Shown here piece after piece: positions 13,544 through 33,004 of a DNA stretch of 64,000 nt. The notes under the pieces were generated by a model. The model saw only the letters and a program-made list of their open reading frames with translations. It was not told the DNA's origin and searched no databases. The DNA comes from a virus. Numbering within the stretch: the first letter of the stretch is position 1; the number at the start of each line of letters is the position of its first letter. The stretch covers positions 124,001 through 188,000 of the IMG/VR virus record IMGVR_UViG_3300050034_000187. The stretch is one strand, 5' to 3'. The translations under genes were made by a program, and so were the position numbers.

Positions 13544-14338
13544 ATGTTTATCGAATCTATTAAGCGAGAATTTTCAAATGGCGTAGTTTATGCAATGAAA
13601 ACCGAGGATGGCTATCCTATTGAAACAACGGATACTTTCCTGCCGTATTATACCAAATTTGCAATTAATGAGCATACCAATAAGTTGAAGTCCGATGATG
13701 TTGGATCACGCAAAGAGCGTTGGATGATTGGTGTTAGTTGCATGTCATCGTGCCCCGTTCACTGCCGTTTTTGCGCCACTGGCCAGTTGAAGCGTACTCG
13801 AAAGCTTTCTGCTCAGGAAATTGTTGATCAAGTTAAGTTCATTCTTGTGAAGAATCATGATTTAACTCCAAGTGATTCTAAGGAATTTAAAATCAATTAT
13901 ACTAGGTGCGGCGAACCATTCCTAAACATTGAAGCTGTGAAGGAAGCTATTCGCAGCATTGATGCAATGCTTCCGGGGGTACGCGTGCATCATTATATTT
14001 CTACTATTGGTTTAAGGGGAATGGATACCTCATGGATTAAGGATAATATCACTCTTCAGCTATCTCTACATAGCACCGATGAAATCCGGCGGAATGATCT
14101 TATTCCAGTATCCAATTTAATGAGTATTGAAGAGTTGGGAAAAGTTCGCACGGAAAGCGAATTGAAGACCACTATTAATATGACTCTGGTCGATACAGCG
14201 GACTTTAATATTGATGTGATCAAAAAGAATTTTGACCCGGATTACTTTTTTATAAAAATTTCTCCAATTAACGTTAACTCGGTGAGTGAAGCAAATCATA
14301 TGGGGGCTGGAATTATCAAGGCAGTTAATTTGATTTAA
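13544..14338 (+). CDS. Radical SAM enzyme, RlmN/Cfr-like, shortened
   Basis: 264 residues. SCPVHCRFCATGQ provides the CxxxCxxC cluster motif of radical SAM enzymes in the RlmN/Cfr arrangement, and YTRCGEPFLNIEAV corresponds to the GEPL-N SAM-binding motif. LQLSLHSTDEIRRNDLIP matches the 'SLHA....R..L.P' segment of RlmN. RlmN is about 370-390 residues; here the N-terminal tRNA/rRNA-binding domain is nearly absent and the C-terminus ends before the essential methyl-carrying cysteine. It may modify RNA by a changed mechanism, or act on another substrate. Confidence 0.8.
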   Translation: MFIESIKREFSNGVVYAMKTEDGYPIETTDTFLPYYTKFAINEHTNKLKSDDVGSRKERWMIGVSCMSSCPVHCRFCATGQLKRTRKLSAQEIVDQVKFILVKNHDLTPSDSKEFKINYTRCGEPFLNIEAVKEAIRSIDAMLPGVRVHHYISTIGLRGMDTSWIKDNITLQLSLHSTDEIRRNDLIPVSNLMSIEELGKVRTESELKTTINMTLVDTADFNIDVIKKNFDPDYFFIKISPINVNSVSEANHMGAGIIKAVNLI

Positions 14339-15160: not shown

Positions 15161-15201
15161 AAAATTCCTCTATTATATTAATCTATGGTAGAGGAATTTT
15201 T
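15161..15201 (+). terminator. 12-base-pair hairpin ending in T5
   Basis: AAAATTCCTCTA (15161-15172) pairs with TAGAGGAATTTT (15189-15200), then T continues. The 16-base loop is AT-rich. It probably terminates the mini-gene at 15004, though the loop also holds -10-like sequence as in the promoter hairpins elsewhere. Confidence 0.55.
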
Positions 15202-15204
15202 ATA

Positions 15205-15233
15205 TTGACAAATCAGTTGATATTTGATATTAT
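15205..15233 (+). promoter_or_regulatory. Sigma70-like promoter
   Basis: TTGACA (15205-15210), 17-base spacer, TATTAT (15228-15233); serves the ATG at 15259. Confidence 0.8.
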
Positions 15234-16129: not shown

Positions 16130-16221
16130 ACTAAGAAATATGCGATATCGCACACATTGCCCATGGATTATTAATTCATTTATTCCAGCGGTTCCAACAA
16201 ATTAATTTAAGGAGATTAGTC

Positions 16222-16473
16222 ATGGGAGAATTTAAAAAACTGGAACAGGTGATTCCTAATAACACCGAATTTGATGGTTTCAAAGGCATGGCTCCCGGAA
16301 ATGACGATGGATATGGAAATAGTTATGTGAAATATTCGGATGCAATCGCAAGAGAGAACCTGCTCTTGGATGCTATAGAACGTGCCATTCTTGTTCTTGA
16401 CAATCTTCCGGGTATTTCCATTGATACCATCGGCCTGAAATATGTACATGAAAATATCAAAAATACGCAATAA
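16222..16473 (+). CDS. Small hypothetical protein (83 aa)
   Basis: ATG after AAGGAG. Acidic, glycine-rich first half (GFKGMAPGNDDGYGNSYVKY) and a helical second half (RENLLLDAIERAILVLDNL). No family recognised. Confidence 0.6.
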   Translation: MGEFKKLEQVIPNNTEFDGFKGMAPGNDDGYGNSYVKYSDAIARENLLLDAIERAILVLDNLPGISIDTIGLKYVHENIKNTQ

Positions 16474-16476
16474 TAA

Positions 16477-16505
16477 TTGACAATTGAGTTCAATCTTGCT
16501 ATTAT
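16477..16505 (+). promoter_or_regulatory. Leaderless promoter inside a 13-base-pair inverted repeat
   Basis: TTGACA (16477-16482), 17-base spacer, TATTAT (16500-16505), ATG at 16512 six bases later. GAGTTCAATCTTG (16486-16498) and CAAGATTGAACTC (16520-16532) are perfect inverted copies, so the -10 box and start codon both sit in the loop and the right arm is coding. Confidence 0.8.
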
Positions 16506-16511
16506 TAATAC

Positions 16512-17060
16512 ATGGAAAACAAGATTGAACTCGCCATATCCCCCCTCAAGAATGATGCAGTCAAATCTGCCTTGGCTATTGCGCATGATGATATTGAATC
16601 CGTTAAGAAAAATCTTGAAGCATCTGGGTGGGATCGCGAAAAAGTTGCCTCTTATCCGGCGTCCAATTGGGCAACTCCTTGCAAAGATTATCAAATGAAG
16701 GTTGAAATGTACAAATTTGTTTGCTCAATTACCGCCGGAGATGATAGCAAAAATTCTGGGTCGAGGAAGCTGAATGATCCATATTTTGTTGTGATGAGCA
16801 ATGCCGGGATTGATAATTATTTGGAGATGGTTGCAAGAGATGCCGGTTCTCGGTATGTTTCCTTCGTTGCAAAGATGGTGAAGAAAATTGGGGATGTGGC
16901 GGATGCTTCTTTGGAAGGCAACCATGTTTGGGGAAATAGCATTCTTACTATTACTCGCGAAGACGGTTCAAGGGAGCGGTGGTTCACTCAGCAGATCATC
17001 AATGTTTCTAAATGGGGTCGGCTGTTTAATCAATGGCCTTCGAGAAAGATGAAAGGATAA
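16512..17060 (+). CDS. Hypothetical protein (182 aa)
   Basis: No ribosome binding site; predicted to be translated from a leaderless mRNA. Helical N-terminus (MENKIELAIS...IAHDDIESVKKNLEASGW) and a central part FVVMSNAGIDNYLEMVARDAGSRYVSFVAKMVKKIGDV, then strand GNSILTITREDGSRERWFTQQI. Trp-rich C-terminus. It has the look of a compact phage enzyme or binding protein, but I recognise no motif. Confidence 0.7.
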   Translation: MENKIELAISPLKNDAVKSALAIAHDDIESVKKNLEASGWDREKVASYPASNWATPCKDYQMKVEMYKFVCSITAGDDSKNSGSRKLNDPYFVVMSNAGIDNYLEMVARDAGSRYVSFVAKMVKKIGDVADASLEGNHVWGNSILTITREDGSRERWFTQQIINVSKWGRLFNQWPSRKMKG

Positions 17061-17399: not shown

Positions 17400-17429
17400 T
17401 TGACATTCAATCATGCAACGGGGTATAAT
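17400..17429 (+). promoter_or_regulatory. Promoter giving a leaderless mRNA
   Basis: TTGACA (17400-17405), 18-base spacer, TATAAT (17424-17429); the ATG at 17436 is six bases downstream. Confidence 0.75.
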
Positions 17430-18518: not shown

Positions 18519-18779
18519 ATGGCAGTAGAACAATTAGGACCGAGTGAAGTACAAAAACTTCGGGAACTTTTGCAAGAAAGTTTAAAGGTACGGCAGGAAT
18601 GTGATGATCTAAAATCATCCCTTTCTGAAACGATCTCGTGTATTTCTGAGGAGCTTTCTATTCCAAAGAAATATATTAGCAAAGCAATTCAAATTGCTTA
18701 TAAAGGGAAATTCAGCGATTCCGAGGAAGAGCTTGCGCAGATCGGTGAGATTCTTTCTAAGACTGGCTTCAAGGATTAA
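18519..18779 (+). CDS. Small coiled-coil protein with HTH-like end (86 aa)
   Basis: ATG after AAGGAGAAA. A long helix (SEVQKLRELLQESLKVRQECDDLKSSLSETI) is followed by SEELSIPKKYISKAIQIAYKG, which resembles a winged or simple helix-turn-helix. This layout recalls T4 DsbA-type double-strand DNA-binding proteins of late transcription, but the match is by overall shape only. Confidence 0.5.
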   Translation: MAVEQLGPSEVQKLRELLQESLKVRQECDDLKSSLSETISCISEELSIPKKYISKAIQIAYKGKFSDSEEELAQIGEILSKTGFKD

Positions 18780-18785
18780 TTTTAA

Positions 18786-18814
18786 TTGACATTTCCTCCG
18801 ATGTTTGCTATTAT
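18786..18814 (+). promoter_or_regulatory. Promoter in the loop of an RBS-masking inverted repeat
   Basis: TTGACA (18786-18791), 17-base spacer, TATTAT (18809-18814). TTTCCTCCGATG (18792-18803) is the perfect inverted copy of CATCGGAGGAAA (18820-18831), which contains the ribosome binding site GGAGGAA. Read-through mRNA would fold and hide this site; mRNA started here would not carry the left arm. Confidence 0.85.
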
Positions 18815-18838
18815 ATATTCATCGGAGGAAATACAAAA

Positions 18839-19090
18839 ATGATGTATCCTACTGTTCATTTAAACGGAACTTCGCAAAAGGATCTTCTAGGCCAATATTG
18901 TGAAATGGCGTATTCTCTGGGAAAAGCGTTGGATAAGATGCAAGAGAACGGTCCCCATGGGCGAGACTATTATCCGCAAGGAGATTCTGCTCTGTATAAG
19001 GCGCAGGATGAGCATCGGGATAGGTGCAATCGTCTATTGAAGATCAAGCAAGAGATTGAAGATATCATGTATCATATCAACGATATTTAA
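18839..19090 (+). CDS. Hypothetical protein (83 aa)
   Basis: ATG ATG at 18839/18842 after GGAGGAA. Product with helix MAYSLGKALDKMQENG, a GRDYYPQGDS loop and a charged helix DEHRDRCNRLLKIKQEIEDIMYHI. Expression is probably set by the promoter hairpin upstream. Not recognised. Confidence 0.65.
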   Translation: MMYPTVHLNGTSQKDLLGQYCEMAYSLGKALDKMQENGPHGRDYYPQGDSALYKAQDEHRDRCNRLLKIKQEIEDIMYHINDI

Positions 19091-21113: not shown

Positions 21114-22751
21114 ATGTCATATATAAGTGCATTTCACGATAAGAAAAAAGAAGTTATTCACGTAGTGGAAAGGGATCAAGAAGGTAATCGAGTTTATAAA
21201 GATTATGTTCCTGATTATTCTTTCTATGTTTCAGATGATAACGGTTCATATAAAACTATTTTTCAAAATAGAGTCAAAAAGATTATTCCTAAAAATTCCG
21301 CAGATTTTCATAAGTATCTTAATATGTATAAAGGTAAAAAGACTCTATGGGAATCTGATCTAAATTTAGTATATAAGTGTTTGGCAGAGAATTATAGGAA
21401 TGCTCCGCTTCCTCCCCTTCATATAGCATTCCTTGATATTGAAGCAGATTTTTCACAAGAACGCGGGTTTGCTCCAATTGAAGATCCATTTAATCAAATC
21501 ACGGCAATTACGGTTTACTTATCTTGGCTAGATGAATTAATAACTCTTGCAATTCCTCCCAAAACACTCAGTAAAGATGAAGCAAATAAAATTGCATCTG
21601 AATTTGAAAATACTCTATTATTTGATAATGATGCAGATTTATTAAATGCATTTGTTATTTTGATAGAAGATGCCGACGTATTAACAAATTGGAATGGCGA
21701 TGCCTACGATATTCCATATATCATTAATAGAACCAAAAGAGTATTATCAACCAATGATACTCGCAAAATGTGTTTATGGGATCAATTACCCGCAGAAAAA
21801 ACAGCGGTAAGTTTTAATAATGAATATCTAACTTATGAATTAGTTGGAAGAGTACAACTTGATTTATTGAAATTATATCAGAAGTTTACTTATGAAGAAC
21901 GACGATCATATTCGTTGGATTCTATTGGAGAATATGAATTAGATGAACATAAGACTTCTTATGAAGGAAACTTGGATCAGTTATATAATAATGATTTCAA
22001 GTTATTCATTCAATATAACCGCCAAGATGTTATGCTTATTAAAAAACTAGAAGATAAATTGAAGCTGATTTCTTTGGCTAATGCTCTTGCTCATGAAAAT
22101 ACGGTTCTATTGCCGAATGCATTGGGAACCGTTGCAATGATTGATCAAGCAATTATTAATAGAGCGCACGATTTGGTATTAGTTGTTCCTAATAAAAAGC
22201 ATAGCAAAGAAGAAGTTATTGCGGCTGGCGCATATGTTGCTGATCCAATTGTTGGGATACATTCTTACGTAGGCAGCACAGATATTAACTCGCTCTATCC
22301 ATCGGATATTCGAGCATTGAATATGAGCATTGATACATTGATTGGAACTATTGTCCCGATATATACCAAAAAGATGTTGGAAGAAAAATCTTCTCAGGGA
22401 AAATCCAGCGCAGAATGTTGGGAAAAAGTTTTTGGTTCTTTGGAATATCAAGGAATTATGAAGCAAGATGAAAATATGGAATTGGATATTCAATGGGAGC
22501 ATTCTGATCAAGTAACTCATTGTACTGCAAATGATGCCTATAATCTTATTTTTAATTCAGGAAACAATTGGATTTTATCTGGCAATGGTATTATTTTCAC
22601 CAAAGAAAAAAAAGGAATTATTCCAGAACTTCTTGCTGATTGGTATAATGAACGAAAAAAAATGCAAAAGGAAATGAGGTCATTGGATGCTATCAATCAT
22701 GGTATCGAAATACCCAATGATTTATTTGAAAATATAGAAAAACTATTATGA
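21114..22751 (+). CDS. 43: DNA polymerase family B, N-terminal part (exonuclease + motif A)
   Basis: 545 residues: the first piece of a split T4 gp43-like replicative polymerase. Exo I FLDIEAD (about 105-111), Exo II LTNWNGDAYDIPYI and Exo III YNRQDVMLIKKL give the proofreading domain. Motif A TDINSLYPS near 388 gives the first catalytic Asp of the palm. The piece ends in the fingers (LLADWYNERKKMQKEM ... IEKLL) before motif B. The rest is encoded at 23992 after an HNH endonuclease gene. Both pieces end and begin cleanly, so they probably assemble as a two-subunit enzyme, as in split gp43 of some Aeromonas phages. Confidence 0.93.
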   Translation: MSYISAFHDKKKEVIHVVERDQEGNRVYKDYVPDYSFYVSDDNGSYKTIFQNRVKKIIPKNSADFHKYLNMYKGKKTLWESDLNLVYKCLAENYRNAPLPPLHIAFLDIEADFSQERGFAPIEDPFNQITAITVYLSWLDELITLAIPPKTLSKDEANKIASEFENTLLFDNDADLLNAFVILIEDADVLTNWNGDAYDIPYIINRTKRVLSTNDTRKMCLWDQLPAEKTAVSFNNEYLTYELVGRVQLDLLKLYQKFTYEERRSYSLDSIGEYELDEHKTSYEGNLDQLYNNDFKLFIQYNRQDVMLIKKLEDKLKLISLANALAHENTVLLPNALGTVAMIDQAIINRAHDLVLVVPNKKHSKEEVIAAGAYVADPIVGIHSYVGSTDINSLYPSDIRALNMSIDTLIGTIVPIYTKKMLEEKSSQGKSSAECWEKVFGSLEYQGIMKQDENMELDIQWEHSDQVTHCTANDAYNLIFNSGNNWILSGNGIIFTKEKKGIIPELLADWYNERKKMQKEMRSLDAINHGIEIPNDLFENIEKLL

Positions 22752-22807: not shown

Positions 22808-24004
22808 ATGGATCGCATAGAAATTGAAAAGAAGTTTAGGGAAACTTATACTATAAAAAGTGAGTTGCATTTTAACAGATATTTGAATTATTTTGAAAAA
22901 TATTTTTATTCATTTGAAAAATATAGAGTTAATTGTATTATGGAAAAGCATCATATATTCCCGGTGTCGTTATTTCCTGAATATAAAAAAGAAAAATGGA
23001 ATAAAGTAAAGATTTCTGCAAGAGAGCATTTCTTACTTCATTTTCTATTGTATAAAGCTATTAAAAGTAGTAGCATGGTATATGCGTTTAATCAAATGCG
23101 AAGATATTTAAAAACATCTTCCTGCCAATATGCATGGTTATATGTTAAACATAGAGAAGAGATTTGTAAAATAATTTCCAAATGTAATACTGGAAGAATT
23201 AGAACAGAAGAGCAAAAGTTGGCAATGTCTATTTCTCGAAAGGGAATGATGGCTTGGAAAAATTTGGAAACTGGAGAAACTTGTTATGCTCTACATGGAA
23301 GTTTAAAATATCCATGGGTGCATATCTGTACTGGAAATAAGCATAGCGAAAATACAAAGAAACAAATTGGAGAATCGCAAAAAGGAAAATTGTGGCAATA
23401 TAATCCAGCGACCGGGGAAATTCGGCAAGAGTATGAATTACTAGATGGATTTGTTTGGGGAATGAGTCCAGAATTAAAAAAGCACAATAGTTTGCATATA
23501 CAAAAACGAATTGTAGATTCTCTCTGGGTTATCAAAGATGGCAAAGAACTTAGAGTTAAATCTGGAGATATTACCGACGATATGACTGTTGGAAGATTAC
23601 CGGATACTGCTGAAGTTGGATTATCAATCATGAACAATAAGGATTATAAAAAATTACTTAATTTGAAAACAAAGCAATATGAACTTGTTCTTATGAAAAC
23701 TAGCAAGCCATGGCAAATCCCAGCCGGAGCAAAATTATCCACTCTTTATATTTTTGAATATAAAGGAATTTATTCTGCTAGCGCTAACCAAATGTGGAAA
23801 TGTTTTTCATACTTGCCAATAAAAAATGGAAAAAAAGATTTATCATTGATGAATAAATTAATTCCAAAGCCAAGACCAAATTGGTCCAAAGAACGAAATG
23901 AGTTTTATACCAAATACCACGGAGAGACATTGCATGAGGTTGGATTTCATGTAATTCCATTAAAAGATTATACGTTTAGTGAGGAACATATATGGCTGAA
24001 ATAG
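22808..24004 (+). CDS. HNH homing endonuclease inserted in the polymerase gene
   Basis: 398 residues. MEKHHIFPVSLFPEYKKEKWNKVKISAREHFLLH (45-78) is an HNH nuclease core with the His pair at 48-49, Asn65 and His74/His78. Downstream, NTGRIRTEEQKLAMSISRKGM and KHSENTKKQIGESQKG are NUMOD-type DNA-binding repeats typical of homing endonucleases. It separates the two polymerase pieces and overlaps the second by 13 bases. It would cut uninterrupted polymerase genes of co-infecting phages and so spread itself. Confidence 0.88.
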   Translation: MDRIEIEKKFRETYTIKSELHFNRYLNYFEKYFYSFEKYRVNCIMEKHHIFPVSLFPEYKKEKWNKVKISAREHFLLHFLLYKAIKSSSMVYAFNQMRRYLKTSSCQYAWLYVKHREEICKIISKCNTGRIRTEEQKLAMSISRKGMMAWKNLETGETCYALHGSLKYPWVHICTGNKHSENTKKQIGESQKGKLWQYNPATGEIRQEYELLDGFVWGMSPELKKHNSLHIQKRIVDSLWVIKDGKELRVKSGDITDDMTVGRLPDTAEVGLSIMNNKDYKKLLNLKTKQYELVLMKTSKPWQIPAGAKLSTLYIFEYKGIYSASANQMWKCFSYLPIKNGKKDLSLMNKLIPKPRPNWSKERNEFYTKYHGETLHEVGFHVIPLKDYTFSEEHIWLK

Positions 24005-25215
24005 CAGAGAAATTGAAAGATCTAATTGAGTGCGGAGATGTTAAAAAGATTTCTGTATTCATGAAAGATAATAATCTAATTTTAGATAAAAAACACAAAA
24101 CTATTACATATGCAAATAATAATGACATAGCTAAAAAGGTTGAATTTTTAGATCAGAGTCAGCATGTAAGAAAAATCAAGATGAACAGCTTATTTGGTTC
24201 GGAATTAAATTTAGCATCTAGATTTAATGATCATAGAATTGGCCAATCTATTACTTTATCTGGTAGATTAATTGTGAAGCATATGTCTGCCTATATTAAT
24301 CAGTTATTGACTGGAAAATATGATTATGTTGGTGAAACTATATTATACAATGACACGGATAGTGCATACTTTACTATTTGGCCTATTATCAAAAATAAAG
24401 TAGAATCTGGAGAAATGGAATGGAATGCTGATATTGCTATAAAACTATATAATGAAATTGCAGAAAAGGTGAATAATAATTTTCCATCTTTTATGAAATC
24501 GGCATTTAATTGTTCACTGGAAGATGGTGCTATTATTAAGTGCGGGCGTGAGATAGTTGCATCCAAGATGTTGTTGATTGTTAAAAAAAGATATGCAGCA
24601 ATGATGGTAGACAAAGATGGTATTCGTTATGATGTAGATGGAAAGCCCGGTAAAATGAAAGTTATGGGATTGGATCTACGTAGATCAGATACTCCCGCAA
24701 TTGTTCAAAAGTTCCTTAAAGATACTTTGTTAGAAGTTCTTACTTCCAATGATGAGAATGTTATTGTGGAGAAGATCAAAGCATTCAAGAAAACATTTAA
24801 GAATCTTCCACCGTGGGAAATGGGATCGCCAAAAAGAGGGAACCGACTTACGTTTTATAAAGAGTTGATTAAGGAAGGCAAAGGAAATAGAACTCCGGGA
24901 CATGTTCGCGGAGCACTAAATTGGAATAAATTATGTGATCAACATCATGATAAGATGACGGGAAGAATTGCAGATGGAATGAAATTGGTGGTTGTTCCAT
25001 TAAAAGAAAATAATATGGGAATGAAATCCATTGCTTATCCAACTGATGAAAAGAGATTACCAGAATGGTTTAAGAAATTACCGTTTGATACCGCATCTAT
25101 GATGAAAACCGTTGTTGAAAAACGAATTGAAAATCTATTAAGTAAACTTCCTAATTGGAAAAGTATTGAAAGACGTACTCAACAAGAAACTGGATTGGAT
25201 GCATTTTTCATTTGA
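23992..25215 (+). CDS. 43: DNA polymerase family B, C-terminal part (motifs B and C)
   Basis: 407 residues. KMNSLFGSELNLASRF (about 62-77) is motif B and YNDTDSAYF (about 118-126) is motif C with the second catalytic Asp pair. The thumb follows (MGSPKRGNRLTFYKELIKEGKGNRTPGHVRGALNWNKL), ending near LDAFFI, the clamp-binding tail type of T4 gp43. The ATG at 23992 has GAGG upstream and lies inside the endonuclease gene, so it gets its own start. Together with 21114-22751 it makes a complete polymerase of about 950 residues. Confidence 0.93.
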   Translation: MAEIAEKLKDLIECGDVKKISVFMKDNNLILDKKHKTITYANNNDIAKKVEFLDQSQHVRKIKMNSLFGSELNLASRFNDHRIGQSITLSGRLIVKHMSAYINQLLTGKYDYVGETILYNDTDSAYFTIWPIIKNKVESGEMEWNADIAIKLYNEIAEKVNNNFPSFMKSAFNCSLEDGAIIKCGREIVASKMLLIVKKRYAAMMVDKDGIRYDVDGKPGKMKVMGLDLRRSDTPAIVQKFLKDTLLEVLTSNDENVIVEKIKAFKKTFKNLPPWEMGSPKRGNRLTFYKELIKEGKGNRTPGHVRGALNWNKLCDQHHDKMTGRIADGMKLVVVPLKENNMGMKSIAYPTDEKRLPEWFKKLPFDTASMMKTVVEKRIENLLSKLPNWKSIERRTQQETGLDAFFI

Positions 25216-25240
25216 CATTAATATCCTCTTCTGTTATCAT
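25212..25240 (+). promoter_or_regulatory. Promoter in the loop of an RBS-masking inverted repeat
   Basis: TTGACA (25212-25217), 17-base spacer, TATCAT (25235-25240). AATATCCTCTTC (25220-25231) and GAAGAGGATATT (25244-25255) are perfect inverted copies; the right arm holds AAGAGGA, the ribosome binding site for the ATG at 25259. The -10 box is in the loop. Confidence 0.85.
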
Positions 25241-25258
25241 ATGGAAGAGGATATTTTC

Positions 25259-25486
25259 ATGCATCTAGATAAACTTGGCAATGAACTTCAAGTCGGGGAT
25301 TATATTAAAGAATATTATCCTTTTTGCGGTTCTAATAATACAGAAGGAATTATTACTAGGTTTGATCGAACCGGTTCCGGGAAAGATATTGCTAGATATA
25401 GCGAAACGAGCGGAGATTATGCATATTTAGATCATTCTGAGAAGCAGTCTGAAGAAGATAGAATTCAATATATAATGGAGAGATAA
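25259..25486 (+). CDS. Tail-family small protein (75 aa)
   Basis: ATG at 25259 after AAGAGGA; an in-frame ATG at 25241 lies in the promoter loop and is too early. Body LDKLGNELQVGDYIKEYYPF then EGIITRFDRTG; tail KQSEEDRIQYIMER. First gene of an eight-gene cluster behind the polymerase. Confidence 0.7.
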   Translation: MHLDKLGNELQVGDYIKEYYPFCGSNNTEGIITRFDRTGSGKDIARYSETSGDYAYLDHSEKQSEEDRIQYIMER

Positions 25487-25923
25487 TGGAATATAAATGT
25501 AGAAATGGATTTATGAATATTGGTGACTGGATGGGAACCTTGGGATCATCCTATTATGATGCGGGTGGGCAAGTCGTGGATTTTTGCTGGAAGTATGGTC
25601 CATTGTATGCCGATATTCAAGATCTACGAGGAACCGTATATTGGAGTAATATATATTTTTCTAACTTATGGAAATTTGAAAATAAAGTAGAATTCGATAA
25701 TTGGAAAAATAATAGGATGCCGGAGTCATTTGACTTGAATGGAATGACTTTTAAAATTGGAGATTATTTTTCTCAGGGAGAAGTAGTGGGAAAGAAAATT
25801 GATATTATTTATCTGCTTCCAGATAAATCGTATGCAATAGGTCACGCAATTCCATTTAATATAGATAATTCTGTTAGAAGGGCAACAGACGAAGAAATAT
25901 TGCAATATACAATGGAGCAATAA
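25486..25923 (+). CDS. Tail-family double-length protein (145 aa)
   Basis: TAATG overlap with the previous gene. Two body units in one chain: GFMNIGDWMGTLG... and, after the worn junction FENKVEFDNWKNNRMPE, a second opening NGMTFKIGDYFSQGEVVGKK. Tail ATDEEILQYTMEQ. Probably a fusion of two neighbours whose first tail and stop were lost. Confidence 0.7.
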   Translation: MEYKCRNGFMNIGDWMGTLGSSYYDAGGQVVDFCWKYGPLYADIQDLRGTVYWSNIYFSNLWKFENKVEFDNWKNNRMPESFDLNGMTFKIGDYFSQGEVVGKKIDIIYLLPDKSYAIGHAIPFNIDNSVRRATDEEILQYTMEQ

Positions 25924-25924
25924 T

Positions 25925-26155
25925 ATGAATTATAAAGTTGGAGAGTATTATACTTTGATGAATCCAGCTAGACAGCGGGATGATAGAATATGGGAAATTG
26001 TTAATATAAATGGCACTCGCGTTTATATTAAATTAGTAATGATTGGCGGCGGAATGGTAAGTTGGGGGACTTCTCAAAGAGTATCAATAAAATATATGAA
26101 TAGGTATGAATTGATTTCAAAAGAAGAAGTTATGCAAGAAATCATGGAAAAATAA
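25925..26155 (+). CDS. Tail-family small protein (76 aa)
   Basis: MNYKVGEYYTLMNPARQ, then RIWEIVNINGTRVYIKLVMIG, the KVGEY/WEIV pattern of the small barrel. Tail ISKEEVMQEIMEK. Confidence 0.7.
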   Translation: MNYKVGEYYTLMNPARQRDDRIWEIVNINGTRVYIKLVMIGGGMVSWGTSQRVSIKYMNRYELISKEEVMQEIMEK

Positions 26156-26156
26156 T

Positions 26157-26357
26157 ATGGGAAGAAATAATATTCAATTACATGTTGGCGACTATGTTAT
26201 GGAAACCTTTTGTGGAAGAATAATTGATATTGGGAGGTTAAGCAGCATTGATACCAGAGACGGTGGTATTGGATTTTGCGGTAAGCAGATTGTAATATTG
26301 GGGATGACAGAAAAAATAAGCGAAGAAGAATATCTACAATATGTTATGGAGAGATAA
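26157..26357 (+). CDS. Tail-family small protein (66 aa)
   Basis: NIQLHVGDYVMETFCGRIIDIG opens the barrel; tail ISEEEYLQYVMER uses CTA for Leu, unlike the TTG of many siblings. The next gene's ATG touches its stop. Confidence 0.7.
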   Translation: MGRNNIQLHVGDYVMETFCGRIIDIGRLSSIDTRDGGIGFCGKQIVILGMTEKISEEEYLQYVMER

Positions 26358-26594
26358 ATGAGACATAGATGTCAAAATGGATTAATTGGCGTGGGAGATT
26401 ATGTAGTAATTCGCAAAACGCATGGATTCGGCCATGGGAAAGTGACTGGATTTTCTCAAGCAAGCAGCCTATGGGGACATGCATGGAAAGCTACGATAGA
26501 AGGTTATGATAAACCAAACAATTGGGGATTCTGCTGTCTTGCAAAAAAATTTAATAGTGACGAGGAAATTATACAATTTATTATGGAGCAATGA
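26358..26594 (+). CDS. Tail-family small protein (78 aa)
   Basis: CQNGLIGVGDYVVIRKTHGFGHGKVTGF at the N-terminus resembles 25486 (CRNGFMNIGDW), so these two are related in the body as well. Tail NSDEEIIQFIMEQ. Confidence 0.7.
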   Translation: MRHRCQNGLIGVGDYVVIRKTHGFGHGKVTGFSQASSLWGHAWKATIEGYDKPNNWGFCCLAKKFNSDEEIIQFIMEQ

Positions 26595-26595
26595 T

Positions 26596-26829
26596 ATGAA
26601 ATTTAAAGTAGATGATTTAATTCGTGATGATAATGATATTAGCAGAATATGGAAAATTATCGGAGTATATCCAATGGATAAATCTTATAATACTATTCTA
26701 TATATGCTGTCGGGACATATGATTGCATGGGGAGAAGATTATCCACAAAACGTATTGGCGTCCTTTCTCGAAGAAGATTTTAATGTATTGTCCAATGAAG
26801 AAATTATGCAATATATTATGGAGCAATAA
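26596..26829 (+). CDS. Tail-family small protein, MKFKV group (77 aa)
   Basis: ATG at 26596 one base after the previous stop; MKFKVDDLIRDDNDISRIWKIIGVY. Shares MKFKV(G/D)D and R-x-WKII with the next two genes. Tail LSNEEIMQYIMEQ. Confidence 0.7.
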   Translation: MKFKVDDLIRDDNDISRIWKIIGVYPMDKSYNTILYMLSGHMIAWGEDYPQNVLASFLEEDFNVLSNEEIMQYIMEQ

Positions 26830-26830
26830 T

Positions 26831-27097
26831 ATGAAATTTAAAGTTGGTGATTATATTAGAAATGTAGATAGCACCATTGATGATAGAGTATGGAAAATAA
26901 TAGCATTGGCTTTTGATGAAAATCAATATGTATTAGACTTAAAATTTTTTGTAAATATTGCAATTCCGTATTCTTACAGCATTATTGGTGATTGCTCCTT
27001 AAAGCCATTTGTTAGCTATGGTGAAGTTATACTGACAGACCGTACCATGGAAAAAGTATCAGATGAAGAAATATTGCAATTGGAAATGGAGCAATAA
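26831..27097 (+). CDS. Tail-family small protein, MKFKV group (88 aa)
   Basis: MKFKVGDYIRNVDSTIDDRVWKIIAL at the N-terminus; longer middle with hydrophobic strand FVNIAIPYSYSIIG. Tail VSDEEILQLEMEQ. Ends in a TAATG overlap. Confidence 0.7.
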   Translation: MKFKVGDYIRNVDSTIDDRVWKIIALAFDENQYVLDLKFFVNIAIPYSYSIIGDCSLKPFVSYGEVILTDRTMEKVSDEEILQLEMEQ

Positions 27098-27339
27098 TGA
27101 AATTTAAAGTTGGTGATATAATTTGGTGGAAAGATCATTCTGATGCTGATGATTGTCGTATTTGGAAAATTGTTGAAATATTAAAACATGGTGAATATAT
27201 GATTGTTATATATCGAAGAATGTCTGGAGATTATCCAAGTTATGAAGAGTTGAGGTTATTTAAATTAACTTCGGACATAGCTGGTGGGATGGAAAAAGTA
27301 TCATCGGAAGAAATTATGCAACTTGACATGGAATTATAA
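27097..27339 (+). CDS. Tail-family small protein, MKFKV group (80 aa)
   Basis: MKFKVGDIIWWKDHSDADDCRIWKIVEIL; third successive member with this opening. Tail VSSEEIMQLDMEL. Last gene of the cluster before the clamp promoter. Confidence 0.7.
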   Translation: MKFKVGDIIWWKDHSDADDCRIWKIVEILKHGEYMIVIYRRMSGDYPSYEELRLFKLTSDIAGGMEKVSSEEIMQLDMEL

Positions 27340-28116: not shown

Positions 28117-28141
28117 AAAAGGAGCCGAAGGGCTCCTTTTT
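28117..28141 (+). terminator. Rho-independent terminator after the clamp gene
   Basis: GGAGCC (28121-28126), loop GAAG, GGCTCC (28131-28136), followed by TTTTT. Confidence 0.9.
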
Positions 28142-28143
28142 CA

Positions 28144-28172
28144 TTGACATAATATAGAAATCGCGGTATTAT
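28144..28172 (+). promoter_or_regulatory. Promoter giving a leaderless mRNA
   Basis: TTGACA (28144-28149), 17-base spacer, TATTAT (28167-28172), then exactly six bases to the ATG at 28179. No ribosome binding site is present. Confidence 0.85.
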
Positions 28173-30661: not shown

Positions 30662-31297
30662 ATGAGTAAAACAGGCAATATTATTTTGGGAATTTTCGTA
30701 GCAATTGTAGCAGTTATTTTATTTTCAACTATCGGCGCTTTTTCGTATGTCAATTCAATTCGCAATGAAGGAGTTGGGTATGAATCTCAACTTAATGCTC
30801 AGTATCTTTCAAATCAAAACTATCTAAGTTCGTATATTTCCGGATTTTACGAGCAGACTGGCCTTGTTAAGTATAAGAGTGAAAAGCTTGATCAGATTTT
30901 AAGTGATTATGCCAAGGGACGTTCTGGTGGAAGCGACAAGGAAGATCGTGGTAATTTTATTAATGCTGTTCATGAGGCTGCACCAGATCTTTCTGGATTG
31001 AATATTGCAGACAAGATGTTGGCATATGTTTCATCTGGTCGAGCCGGTTATCGAGATAAGCAGGATCAGCTTCTTGATCTATTGCGTAGTTATGATAAGT
31101 GGCGTAATACTGGAATCTTTCAAAGTATGATTATTAAGAATGTTCTAAATTATCCATCTGATAATTTAGAAGCGCGTATTGGTACAACCGTTGTTAGAGG
31201 TTCATCTGCTCGGGATAAGATGTATGAGATTGTGCTTGCGCCGCAAGCCAAGACTGCATATCAATCTGGCGAAATGACTCCTCTCAGTATTAAGTAA
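30662..31297 (+). CDS. lemA: LemA-like membrane protein
   Basis: 211 residues. One N-terminal membrane helix (IILGIFVAIVAVILFSTIGAF) followed by YVNSIRNEGVGYESQLNAQYLSNQNYLSSYISGFYEQTG, the LemA pattern in which bacterial proteins read '...N.lv....v...wsqvevql..R.dlipnLv...'. It then continues as an all-helical domain with AYVSSGRAGYRDKQDQLLDLLRSYDKWRNTG. LemA proteins have an outward helical bundle. Phages in several jumbo groups carry them without known function. Pairs with the TPM-like gene at 29026. Confidence 0.75.
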   Translation: MSKTGNIILGIFVAIVAVILFSTIGAFSYVNSIRNEGVGYESQLNAQYLSNQNYLSSYISGFYEQTGLVKYKSEKLDQILSDYAKGRSGGSDKEDRGNFINAVHEAAPDLSGLNIADKMLAYVSSGRAGYRDKQDQLLDLLRSYDKWRNTGIFQSMIIKNVLNYPSDNLEARIGTTVVRGSSARDKMYEIVLAPQAKTAYQSGEMTPLSIK

Positions 31298-31303
31298 TGA
31301 AAA

Positions 31304-31350
31304 TTTATTGTGCTGGATGACTATATTGAAGTTGTCCAGCATAATAAATT
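31304..31350 (+). terminator. Long hairpin after lemA
   Basis: AATTTATTGTGCTGGA (31304-31319) pairs with TCCAGCATAATAAATT (31335-31350) over 16 positions with one G-T pair and a 15-base loop. No T run follows; it may be a terminator, an mRNA stabiliser or part of an old insertion end. Confidence 0.5.
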
Positions 31351-31532
31351 ACTTGTCAGATGTGCGCGGCTTAAATAATTTAATATTTAACCTCGTCGGC
31401 AAGAATTCTCCCACCTCAATGAGTCTCAACGAATAGGTGGGAGATGAATTGCCGTCCTTACTTATGTTGTAATTGCTAATACTTCCCCTTCATGATATAA
31501 TCAGTAGTATAACGATGAATGGAGGAAATACA

Positions 31533-31934
31533 ATGGATTTAGACAACAATAATCATTCAGTATTCTTGATGTATTATCATCTAGTCTTTGTCGTAAAGTA
31601 CCGTAGAAAAGTTATTGACGATACTGTTTCTTCTAGCCTAAAAGGAATATTTGAGCGCATATCACCAAACTACAATATCTCCTTACAAGAATGGAATCAC
31701 GACAAAGATCATGTTCATGTACTGTTCAAGGCTCACCCTAATACCGAGTTATCAAAATTCATCAACTCCTATAAGAGTGCTTCATCACGATTGATTAAGA
31801 AAGAGTATCCTCAAATTCGTAAATCATTGTGGAAAGAGTACTTTTGGTCAAGAAGTTTTTGTTTACTTACTACTGGTGGCGCGCCTATTGACGTTGTGAA
31901 GAGATATATCGAAAGCCAAGGTGAGAAGTTATGA
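31533..31934 (+). CDS. tnpA: Y1 transposase TnpA (HUH)
   Basis: 133 residues. ATG at 31533 after GGAGGAA. HVHVLF (60-65) is the HUH metal site and Tyr126 in VVKRYIESQG the DNA-attacking residue. YHLVFVVKYRRKV near the N-terminus is the family signature. It moves single-stranded circles of the element. It overlaps tnpB by four bases. Confidence 0.95.
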   Translation: MDLDNNNHSVFLMYYHLVFVVKYRRKVIDDTVSSSLKGIFERISPNYNISLQEWNHDKDHVHVLFKAHPNTELSKFINSYKSASSRLIKKEYPQIRKSLWKEYFWSRSFCLLTTGGAPIDVVKRYIESQGEKL

Positions 31935-33004
31935 TTAAGGCTTTCAAGTACCGCATATACCCAAACAATGAGCAACGTGAATATTTTGCTAAGACGTTTG
32001 GTTGTACTAGATTCGTGTATAATCGGATGTTGCATGACAAGATCGAACATTACAAAACTACTGAGCAAACTCTAAAGAATACACCAGCACAATATAAGGA
32101 TGAATTCCCTTGGCTAAAAGAAGTGGACAGCCTAGCACTTGCTAATGCTCAAATGAATTTAGAAAAGGCTTATAAAAACTTCTTTCGAGATAAAAGTGTT
32201 GGTTTTCCAAAATTCAAGAGCAAAAAGAATAATCACCGTAGTTATACCACCAATAACCAGAAGGGTACTGTGTCGATTGAGAATAGGCATATCAAACTAC
32301 CTAAACTAAAATCAATGGTCAGAATTAAGCAACATAGGTTATTTGATGGTTTGATAAAGTCTTGCACTGTCTCGCAAACTCCAAGTGGTAAATACTTTGT
32401 ATCAATATTGGTTGAATGTGAGATTGAGAAACTACCACAATTAGAAACTAAAGTGGGTATTGATGTTGGTATAAAAACTTTTGCCTTTATGTCCAATGGT
32501 AAAGAAATTGCAAATCCTAAGCACCTCAGAAAGTCAGAAAAGCGACTTGCTAAACTACAAAAAGACCTGTCCAGAAAACAAAAAGGCAGTCGCAATCGTG
32601 CCAAGGCTAGAATCAAAGTTGCTACACTACATGAGAAAATAAGCAACCAAAGACTTGATTTCCTACACAAAATATCTTTTGAAATTATCCGCGATAACCA
32701 AGCAATAGTTCTCGAAGATTTGAAAATCAAGAACATGGTCAAAAACCATAAGCTGGCAAAATCCATCTCAGAAGTGTCATGGGGAATGTTTAGAGCAATG
32801 ATTGAATATAAGGCTGAATGGTACGGTAGAGAGGTTATTATTGCGCCTCCCAATTATGCCAGTAGCCAACTTTGTTCTGAATGTGGCAATAAATCGAGTC
32901 AAACAAAAGATTTGTCTTGCAGAACTTATATGTGTCCCGTATGTGGTTTAGAGATTGATCGGGACTATAATGCAAGCCTAAATCTACTAAAGTTAGCTGT
33001 GTAA
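31931..33004 (+). CDS. tnpB: TnpB RNA-guided nuclease of the IS605-type element
   Basis: 357 residues. RuvC-I GIDVGIKTFA (about 176), RuvC-II VLEDLKIKNM (about 258), a four-Cys zinc finger CSECG...CPVCG and RuvC-III DRDYNASLNL near the end, so all three acidic residues are present. TnpB cuts DNA guided by the omega RNA from the element's right end and favours retention of the element. The 3' untranslated part 33005-33120 would encode that RNA. Confidence 0.95.
   Translation: MIKAFKYRIYPNNEQREYFAKTFGCTRFVYNRMLHDKIEHYKTTEQTLKNTPAQYKDEFPWLKEVDSLALANAQMNLEKAYKNFFRDKSVGFPKFKSKKNNHRSYTTNNQKGTVSIENRHIKLPKLKSMVRIKQHRLFDGLIKSCTVSQTPSGKYFVSILVECEIEKLPQLETKVGIDVGIKTFAFMSNGKEIANPKHLRKSEKRLAKLQKDLSRKQKGSRNRAKARIKVATLHEKISNQRLDFLHKISFEIIRDNQAIVLEDLKIKNMVKNHKLAKSISEVSWGMFRAMIEYKAEWYGREVIIAPPNYASSQLCSECGNKSSQTKDLSCRTYMCPVCGLEIDRDYNASLNLLKLAV

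Follow-up and report, generated by a model that had tools for sequence, protein, structure and literature searches.

A sigma-70 promoter spacer complementary to the ribosome binding site of its own gene: a candidate translation lock in a large bacterial virus

Introduction

Phage genomes are read as long overlapping transcripts, and how a gene embedded in such a transcript stays off is usually unknown. In IS10/Tn10 and IS50, RNA that starts outside the element folds over the Shine-Dalgarno (SD) sequence of the transposase gene, whereas RNA from the internal promoter does not; these systems differ from the locus described here in that the 5' arm of the fold is the end of the element. Experiments on the T4 genes e, soc, 49 and I-TevI revealed that the SD is hidden in a longer early RNA and freed by an internal late promoter, with lysozyme synthesis 100-fold lower from the structured RNA (PMC3014915, PMC2988022). 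The initial annotation of our locus had named e, soc and I-TevI as precedents, in agreement with these two reports. In Bacillus subtilis, a hairpin of 20 or more bp is proposed to block translation of sigG (spoIIIG) from PspoIIG read-through RNA; RNA started at PsigG, a promoter of the sigma-70 family, cannot fold this way (PMC5942855). In T4, the early promoters are of the strong sigma-70 kind and combine a -35, a TGn and a -10 element (PMC2988021), and T4-type phages carry PeSL cassettes, in which a stem-loop accompanies a host-type early promoter (PMC4503421). Given the T4 and sigG precedents, the masking logic itself is already known. Three features set the present case apart: a promoter of the host early type, the use of the promoter spacer itself as the masking arm, and the recurrence of the arrangement.

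Results

The window analyzed in this study is a 64,000-nucleotide stretch (bases 124001-188000) of a 195,761-bp IMG/VR virus record (~195.8 kb) from a large bacterial virus. Its DNA polymerase belongs to the T4 superfamily, and its nearest matches in the annotated collection come from large phages, among them Agrobacterium phage Atu_ph07 (43% identity). The polymerase gene is split: an HNH homing endonuclease gene (22808-24004) separates its first part (21114-22751) from its second (23992-25215). An IS200/IS605-type element at 31270-33004 comprises an imperfect repeat of 21 bp, a small ORF and a TnpB-like ORF that bears OrfB_IS605 and Cas12f1-like domains. The window also carries a radical-SAM ORF (13544-14338) with sub-threshold similarity to RlmN/Cfr 23S rRNA methyltransferases. 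The T4 late-promoter word TATAAATA was found 6 times on both strands compared with 12 expected from shuffles, as if avoided; a search of the genome for T4 gp55 gave no match, using a distant query and as an uncontrolled negative.

The sequence at 18786-18844 reads TTGACA-TTTCCTCCGATG-TTTGC-TATTAT-ATATT-CATCGGAGGAAA-TACAAAA-ATGATG (Table 1). A consensus scan scored the promoter, TTGACA-N17-TATTAT, at 11/12 with an extended TGn -10, making it a near-consensus sigma-70 promoter. Most of its 17-bp spacer forms the left arm of a perfect inverted repeat with a gap of 16 nt. This repeat had been described as perfect and 12 bp long; it is indeed perfect, but extends to 13 bp through the additional pair A18791/T18832. 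The arms bracket TATTAT as annotated, with the coordinates of the boxes, arms and ATG agreeing exactly, and the right arm does contain the ribosome binding site. The promoter thus lies inside the structure, with the left arm 5' of the -10 box and the right arm 3' of it, beginning at about the RNA start predicted from the usual -10 to +1 distance. The ORF downstream, which has no known function, has distant homologues in many phages. No related DNA was identified among annotated phages at the blastn level, no match was obtained in Rfam, and a pattern scan for relatives of two neighbouring genes confirmed none.

Table 1. Features of the 18786 site, its surroundings and the two further promoters with spacer-leader pairing
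Feature	Position	Strand	Basis or remark
-35 box TTGACA	18786-18791	+	Sequence, consensus scan
TTTCCTCCGATG	18792-18803	+	Read from sequence
Left arm ATTTCCTCCGATG, anti-SD within the -35/-10 spacer	18791-18803	+	Perfect 13-bp complement of 18820-18832
-10 box TATTAT, TGC just before, in hairpin loop	18809-18814	+	Sequence, consensus scan
Predicted transcription start	18820-18822	+	Expected ~6-8 bases past the -10 box
Right arm CATCGGAGGAAAT, containing SD GGAGGA (18824-18829)	18820-18832	+	Sequence, SD opening cost
CATCGGAGGAAA	18820-18831	+	Read from sequence
Start codon ATG; second ATG	18839; 18842	+	Sequence
83-codon ORF under the hairpin	18839-19090	+	Homologues in many phages
Upstream 86-codon ORF, phrog_12534	18519-18779	+	In path of read-through RNA
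Nearest strong upstream promoter, 12/12	17400-17429	+	Likely read-through source
Second case as a whole, with promoter TTGACA-N17-TATCAT	25212-25255	+	
Second case: spacer arm AATATCCTCTTC	25220-25231	+	
Second case: SD arm GAAGAGGATATT	25244-25255	+	ORF from 25259
Third case as a whole, with promoter TTGACA-N17-TATTAT	16477-16532	+	Weaker member
Third case: spacer arm GAGTTCAATCTTG	16486-16498	+	
Third case: right arm	16520-16532	+	Codons 3-7 of ORF 16512

Neither a T4-type late promoter nor a PeSL cassette was recognized at this site. The word TATAAATA was absent near 18786, and no terminator-like site was found at 18786-18841, so the site does not qualify as a PeSL cassette, which has a T-run stem-loop beside an early promoter; here the hairpin lacks a T-run, and both the -10 box and the SD lie within it. 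Elsewhere in the window, terminator-like stem-loops followed directly by a TTGACA promoter were observed at 15161-15233 (additionally with anti-SD/SD-like arms) and 28120-28172, and these do resemble PeSL cassettes.

Read-through RNA is expected at 18786, since the upstream promoter at 17400 matches the consensus at 12/12 and no terminator-like site was found on the + strand between the two. When such an RNA was folded, the predicted cost of opening the SD was 18.3 kcal/mol, compared with 3.4 kcal/mol for an RNA begun at 18821, and the predicted probability of an unpaired SD in the upstream-started RNA was 0.00. The RNA fold z-score was -4.9 (0/200 shuffles as good). Predicted folding thus bears out the earlier proposal that GGAGGAA would be hidden in read-through RNA and free in RNA started internally.

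We also examined how often such pairing arises by chance. Perfect inverted repeats with arms of 12 bp or more and a gap of at most 40 nt number 14 in the window, compared with 0.4 in dinucleotide shuffles; four are of the G+C-richer kind, compared with 0.03. The 14 include ordinary terminators as well as repeats in coding sequence. Promoters were then defined by pattern across the whole record as TTGACA-N16-18-TATNAT (n = 28, compared with 3 for the reversed pattern), and the pairing of each spacer with the next 60 bases was scored against mispaired spacer and leader combinations. Three of the 28 strong promoters (16477, 18786 and 25212) formed spacer-leader helices of 13-15 bp and scored 30-32, while the other 25 scored 10-16. 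The mispaired controls (n = 756) had a mean of 12.6 (sd 2.2) and a maximum of 24, compared with 32 for the 18786 promoter. A scan of ~117 SD starts in the window that was blind to promoters identified two outliers, 18839 (score 32) and 25259 (score 30), with the next best at 19; in both, the 5' arm lies within the spacer of a near-consensus promoter. The spacer-leader pairing at these promoters is not due to chance.

The layout thus occurs two or three times in one genome. At 25212 the ORF lies directly 3' of the DNA polymerase gene, and the predicted SD opening cost was 15.0 kcal/mol in read-through RNA compared with 1.2 kcal/mol in own-start RNA (fold z = -5.2). The region 25259-27339 holds a tandem array of small ORFs whose ends resemble one another (..EEIMQYIMEQ); neighbouring members either overlap or abut, and they are likely paralogues. 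The 16477 case (fold z = -4.5) is the weaker member, because ORF 16512 is apparently leaderless, with its ATG at the expected +1 and no SD, and a lock there would act on the start region. The gaps are 16 nt (18786), 12 nt (25212) and 21 nt (16477), and the arm sequences of the three cases are unrelated, so their common feature is complementarity. Five promoters on the + strand (12753, 16477, 17400, 28144 and 48752) have an ATG exactly seven bases past the -10 box, opening ORFs of 55-329 codons; these probably give leaderless mRNAs, which would likewise be translatable mainly from their own promoter.

Comparison with relatives revealed no hairpin at 28 loci of the 83-aa gene or in 10 polymerase relatives, all of them distant (DNA polymerase 46-52% identical in the latter). 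In three of the polymerase relatives (L058, L059 and L060) a strong promoter still follows the polymerase gene, but the anti-SD is absent. By sequence, the hairpins are specific to the lineage of this phage, and the support therefore lies in their recurrence in this genome and in other phages rather than in orthologues. A separate gene in L058 (polymerase 50% identical), a homing endonuclease of phrog_314 at 16220-16909, has its SD masked by a 15-bp helix that encloses a late-type box, CATAAATA, as in T4 I-TevI, segB and Aeh1 mobE.

We extended the survey to 98 TTGACA...TATTAT promoters using a search pattern blind to pairing. A spacer-leader score of at least 22 was reached by 3/98, compared with 0.5 expected, and one of the three, L153, repeats the 18786 arrangement, its helix covering an SD. 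In 1.29 Mb of other phage loci, 1,737 SD starts were scanned; the strongest SD-masking helices include two that enclose sigma-70 promoters (L153 and L217) and three that enclose late-type NATAAATA boxes (L058, L166 and L119). Sigma-70 promoters accompanied 3/15 hairpin-bearing SD starts in other phages compared with a background of 14.5%, an enrichment that was not significant; the general claim therefore rests on individual cases and on one protein family, phrog_27048. A scan for TTCCTCC...GGAGGAA gave 41 stretches compared with 8 for an anagram control. The excess is no more than suggestive, since part of the anagram is complementary and copies of a single stem-loop, unrelated and with no -10 box, account for many of the 41. 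The spacer anti-SD layout was also seen in bacterial contigs (L332, L358, L360 and L388), for example before a gene of 148 codons (MRFVIQRV...) that occurs in three Lachnospiraceae-type genomes; in a delta-proteobacterial contig the arms are 20 bp long. At L172:4683-4740, a promoter spacer and leader pair into a terminator-like stem followed by T-rich sequence; this is possibly a promoter nested in a terminator that acts on incoming RNA.

The proteins encoded at L153 and L217 are homologous (45% identity) and belong to phrog_27048, a family of unknown function, which we sampled through 80 relatives (L238-L317) in addition to these two. The spacer arm was present in many of the 80 relatives, and about half of the members lack it. 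Arm pairs altered on both sides were identified, namely AAACTCCTGCT/AGCAGGAGTTT, AAAATAGTCCTGCTAT/ATAGCAGGACTATTTT, GGCTCCATA/TATGGAGCC, AGTTATTCCTGTT/AACAGGAATAACT and TAGAGTTACTCCT/AGGAGTAACTCTA. Among 22 non-redundant promoter-bearing members, the own-pair score was at least 24 in nine (compared with 6.3% of mispaired combinations) and at least 30 in four (compared with 0.2%). The gap between the arms varied between 13 and 27 nt, more than a rigid operator would be expected to allow. As read from these sequences, the compensating changes support this kind of arrangement, not the 18786 locus as such.

The pairing could also be a mutational footprint with no regulatory role, left when template switching or quasi-palindrome correction during replication placed an inverted copy of the downstream sequence in the spacer. 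The arms are lineage-specific and almost free of mismatches, a promoter is least constrained in its spacer and tolerates almost any sequence there, one of the three cases (16477) does not lie over an SD, and perfect repeats are also found in the coding sequence of the window. We nevertheless judge this origin unlikely, because two of the three cases lie exactly on an SD, with no other strong SD helix present in the window, and because the pairing in phrog_27048 persists down to 45% identity with both sides changed, a pattern that repeated correction could mimic.

Quite unlikely, in our assessment, is a DNA operator, with a dimeric repressor or activator on the palindrome controlling promoter firing and the SD overlap incidental. 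Arms that flank a -10 box are common for operators, and the upstream neighbour has a weak match to the 'transcriptional regulator' family phrog_639. A further perfect 15-bp inverted repeat, at 788-835, overlaps a promoter at 809 in a different geometry, with the left arm 5' of the -35 and the right arm over the spacer and -10, and covers no SD. The near-pure Watson-Crick pairing of the arms would also suit an operator. A DNA operator should show A-C mismatches as often as G-U, while pairing in sense-strand RNA should make G-U dominant; the arms of 24 cases contained 287 Watson-Crick pairs, 3 G-U and 2 A-C, too few deviations to decide between RNA pairing and DNA symmetry. Against an operator, three unrelated arm sequences with gaps of 16, 12 and 21 nt, together with the spread of gaps in phrog_27048, are a poor fit to one rigid dimer, and the arm CATCGGAGGAAA has no other exact copy in the window (the closest, at 27302, has one mismatch). 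Across the promoters there was neither a common recognition word nor a fixed half-site spacing, although an operator at a single site is conceivable. An operator also gives no reason why the two strongest SD helices of the window should be exactly those at 18839 and 25259.

That the hairpin is the gene's own 5' leader, a thermosensor or protein-bound translational operator in RNA started upstream with the 18786 promoter irrelevant, is highly improbable: read-through from 17400 is expected and the 18786 start is deduced from the sequence, but the 11/12 extended -10 promoter belongs to a class numbering 28 compared with 3 for the reversed pattern. The RBS hairpins that dampen sigG have energies of -6 to -9 kcal/mol (PMC5942855); a 13-bp stem costing 18 kcal/mol to open far exceeds them in stability and would make a poor thermosensor.

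Discussion

Given the sequence and its recurrence, how rarely it would arise by chance and the folds predicted for it, we consider it probable that the 18786 site is a translation lock, under which the 83-codon ORF would be translated only in RNA started at its own promoter. The spacer of this sigma-70 promoter would serve also as the anti-SD. Polymerase arriving from upstream, for example from 17400 via the 18519 gene, would transcribe both arms, and the resulting 13-bp hairpin would bury GGAGGA and leave the ORF untranslated. RNA from the internal promoter would start at ~18821, past the left arm, and its SD would be open.

The proposed lock resembles those of T4 e, soc, 49, I-TevI and segB and of Aeh1 mobE in that the SD lies in the 3' arm, the 5' arm is present only in upstream-started RNA, the promoter lies between the arms, and the short RNA is translatable (here by prediction). 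It differs in its promoter. T4 uses the late promoter TATAAATA, and its genes are off early and on late, whereas at 18786 a sigma-70 promoter takes this place and supplies the 5' arm from its own -35/-10 spacer. The sigG case differs in that it concerns a cellular developmental gene and a sporulation sigma factor, is a single case and has a longer helix. With a host-type (early) sigma-70 promoter inside the hairpin at 18786, the timing seen in T4 would be inverted, or the arrangement would provide simple insulation. The gene would then probably be made only while host-type promoters are active and be silent in later polycistronic RNA; as a minimal alternative, the output of the 83-codon ORF would be insulated from its neighbours.

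More tentatively, and with more doubt than confidence, we suggest that a sigma-70 spacer carrying the anti-SD of its own gene may be a general design, repeated in this phage and independent in other phages and some bacteria. If this is true, genes embedded in long transcripts would be translated only from their own promoter, and in this phage early genes would be silenced in late read-through RNA, the reverse of T4. The comparison of own pairs with mispaired pairs needs no homologues, and it recovered both sigma-70 and late-promoter cases in unrelated phages. If a spacer can lock its own gene, this layer of regulation would be readable from sequence alone, by comparing the spacer with its own leader, and the promoter spacer should not always be taken as neutral filler.
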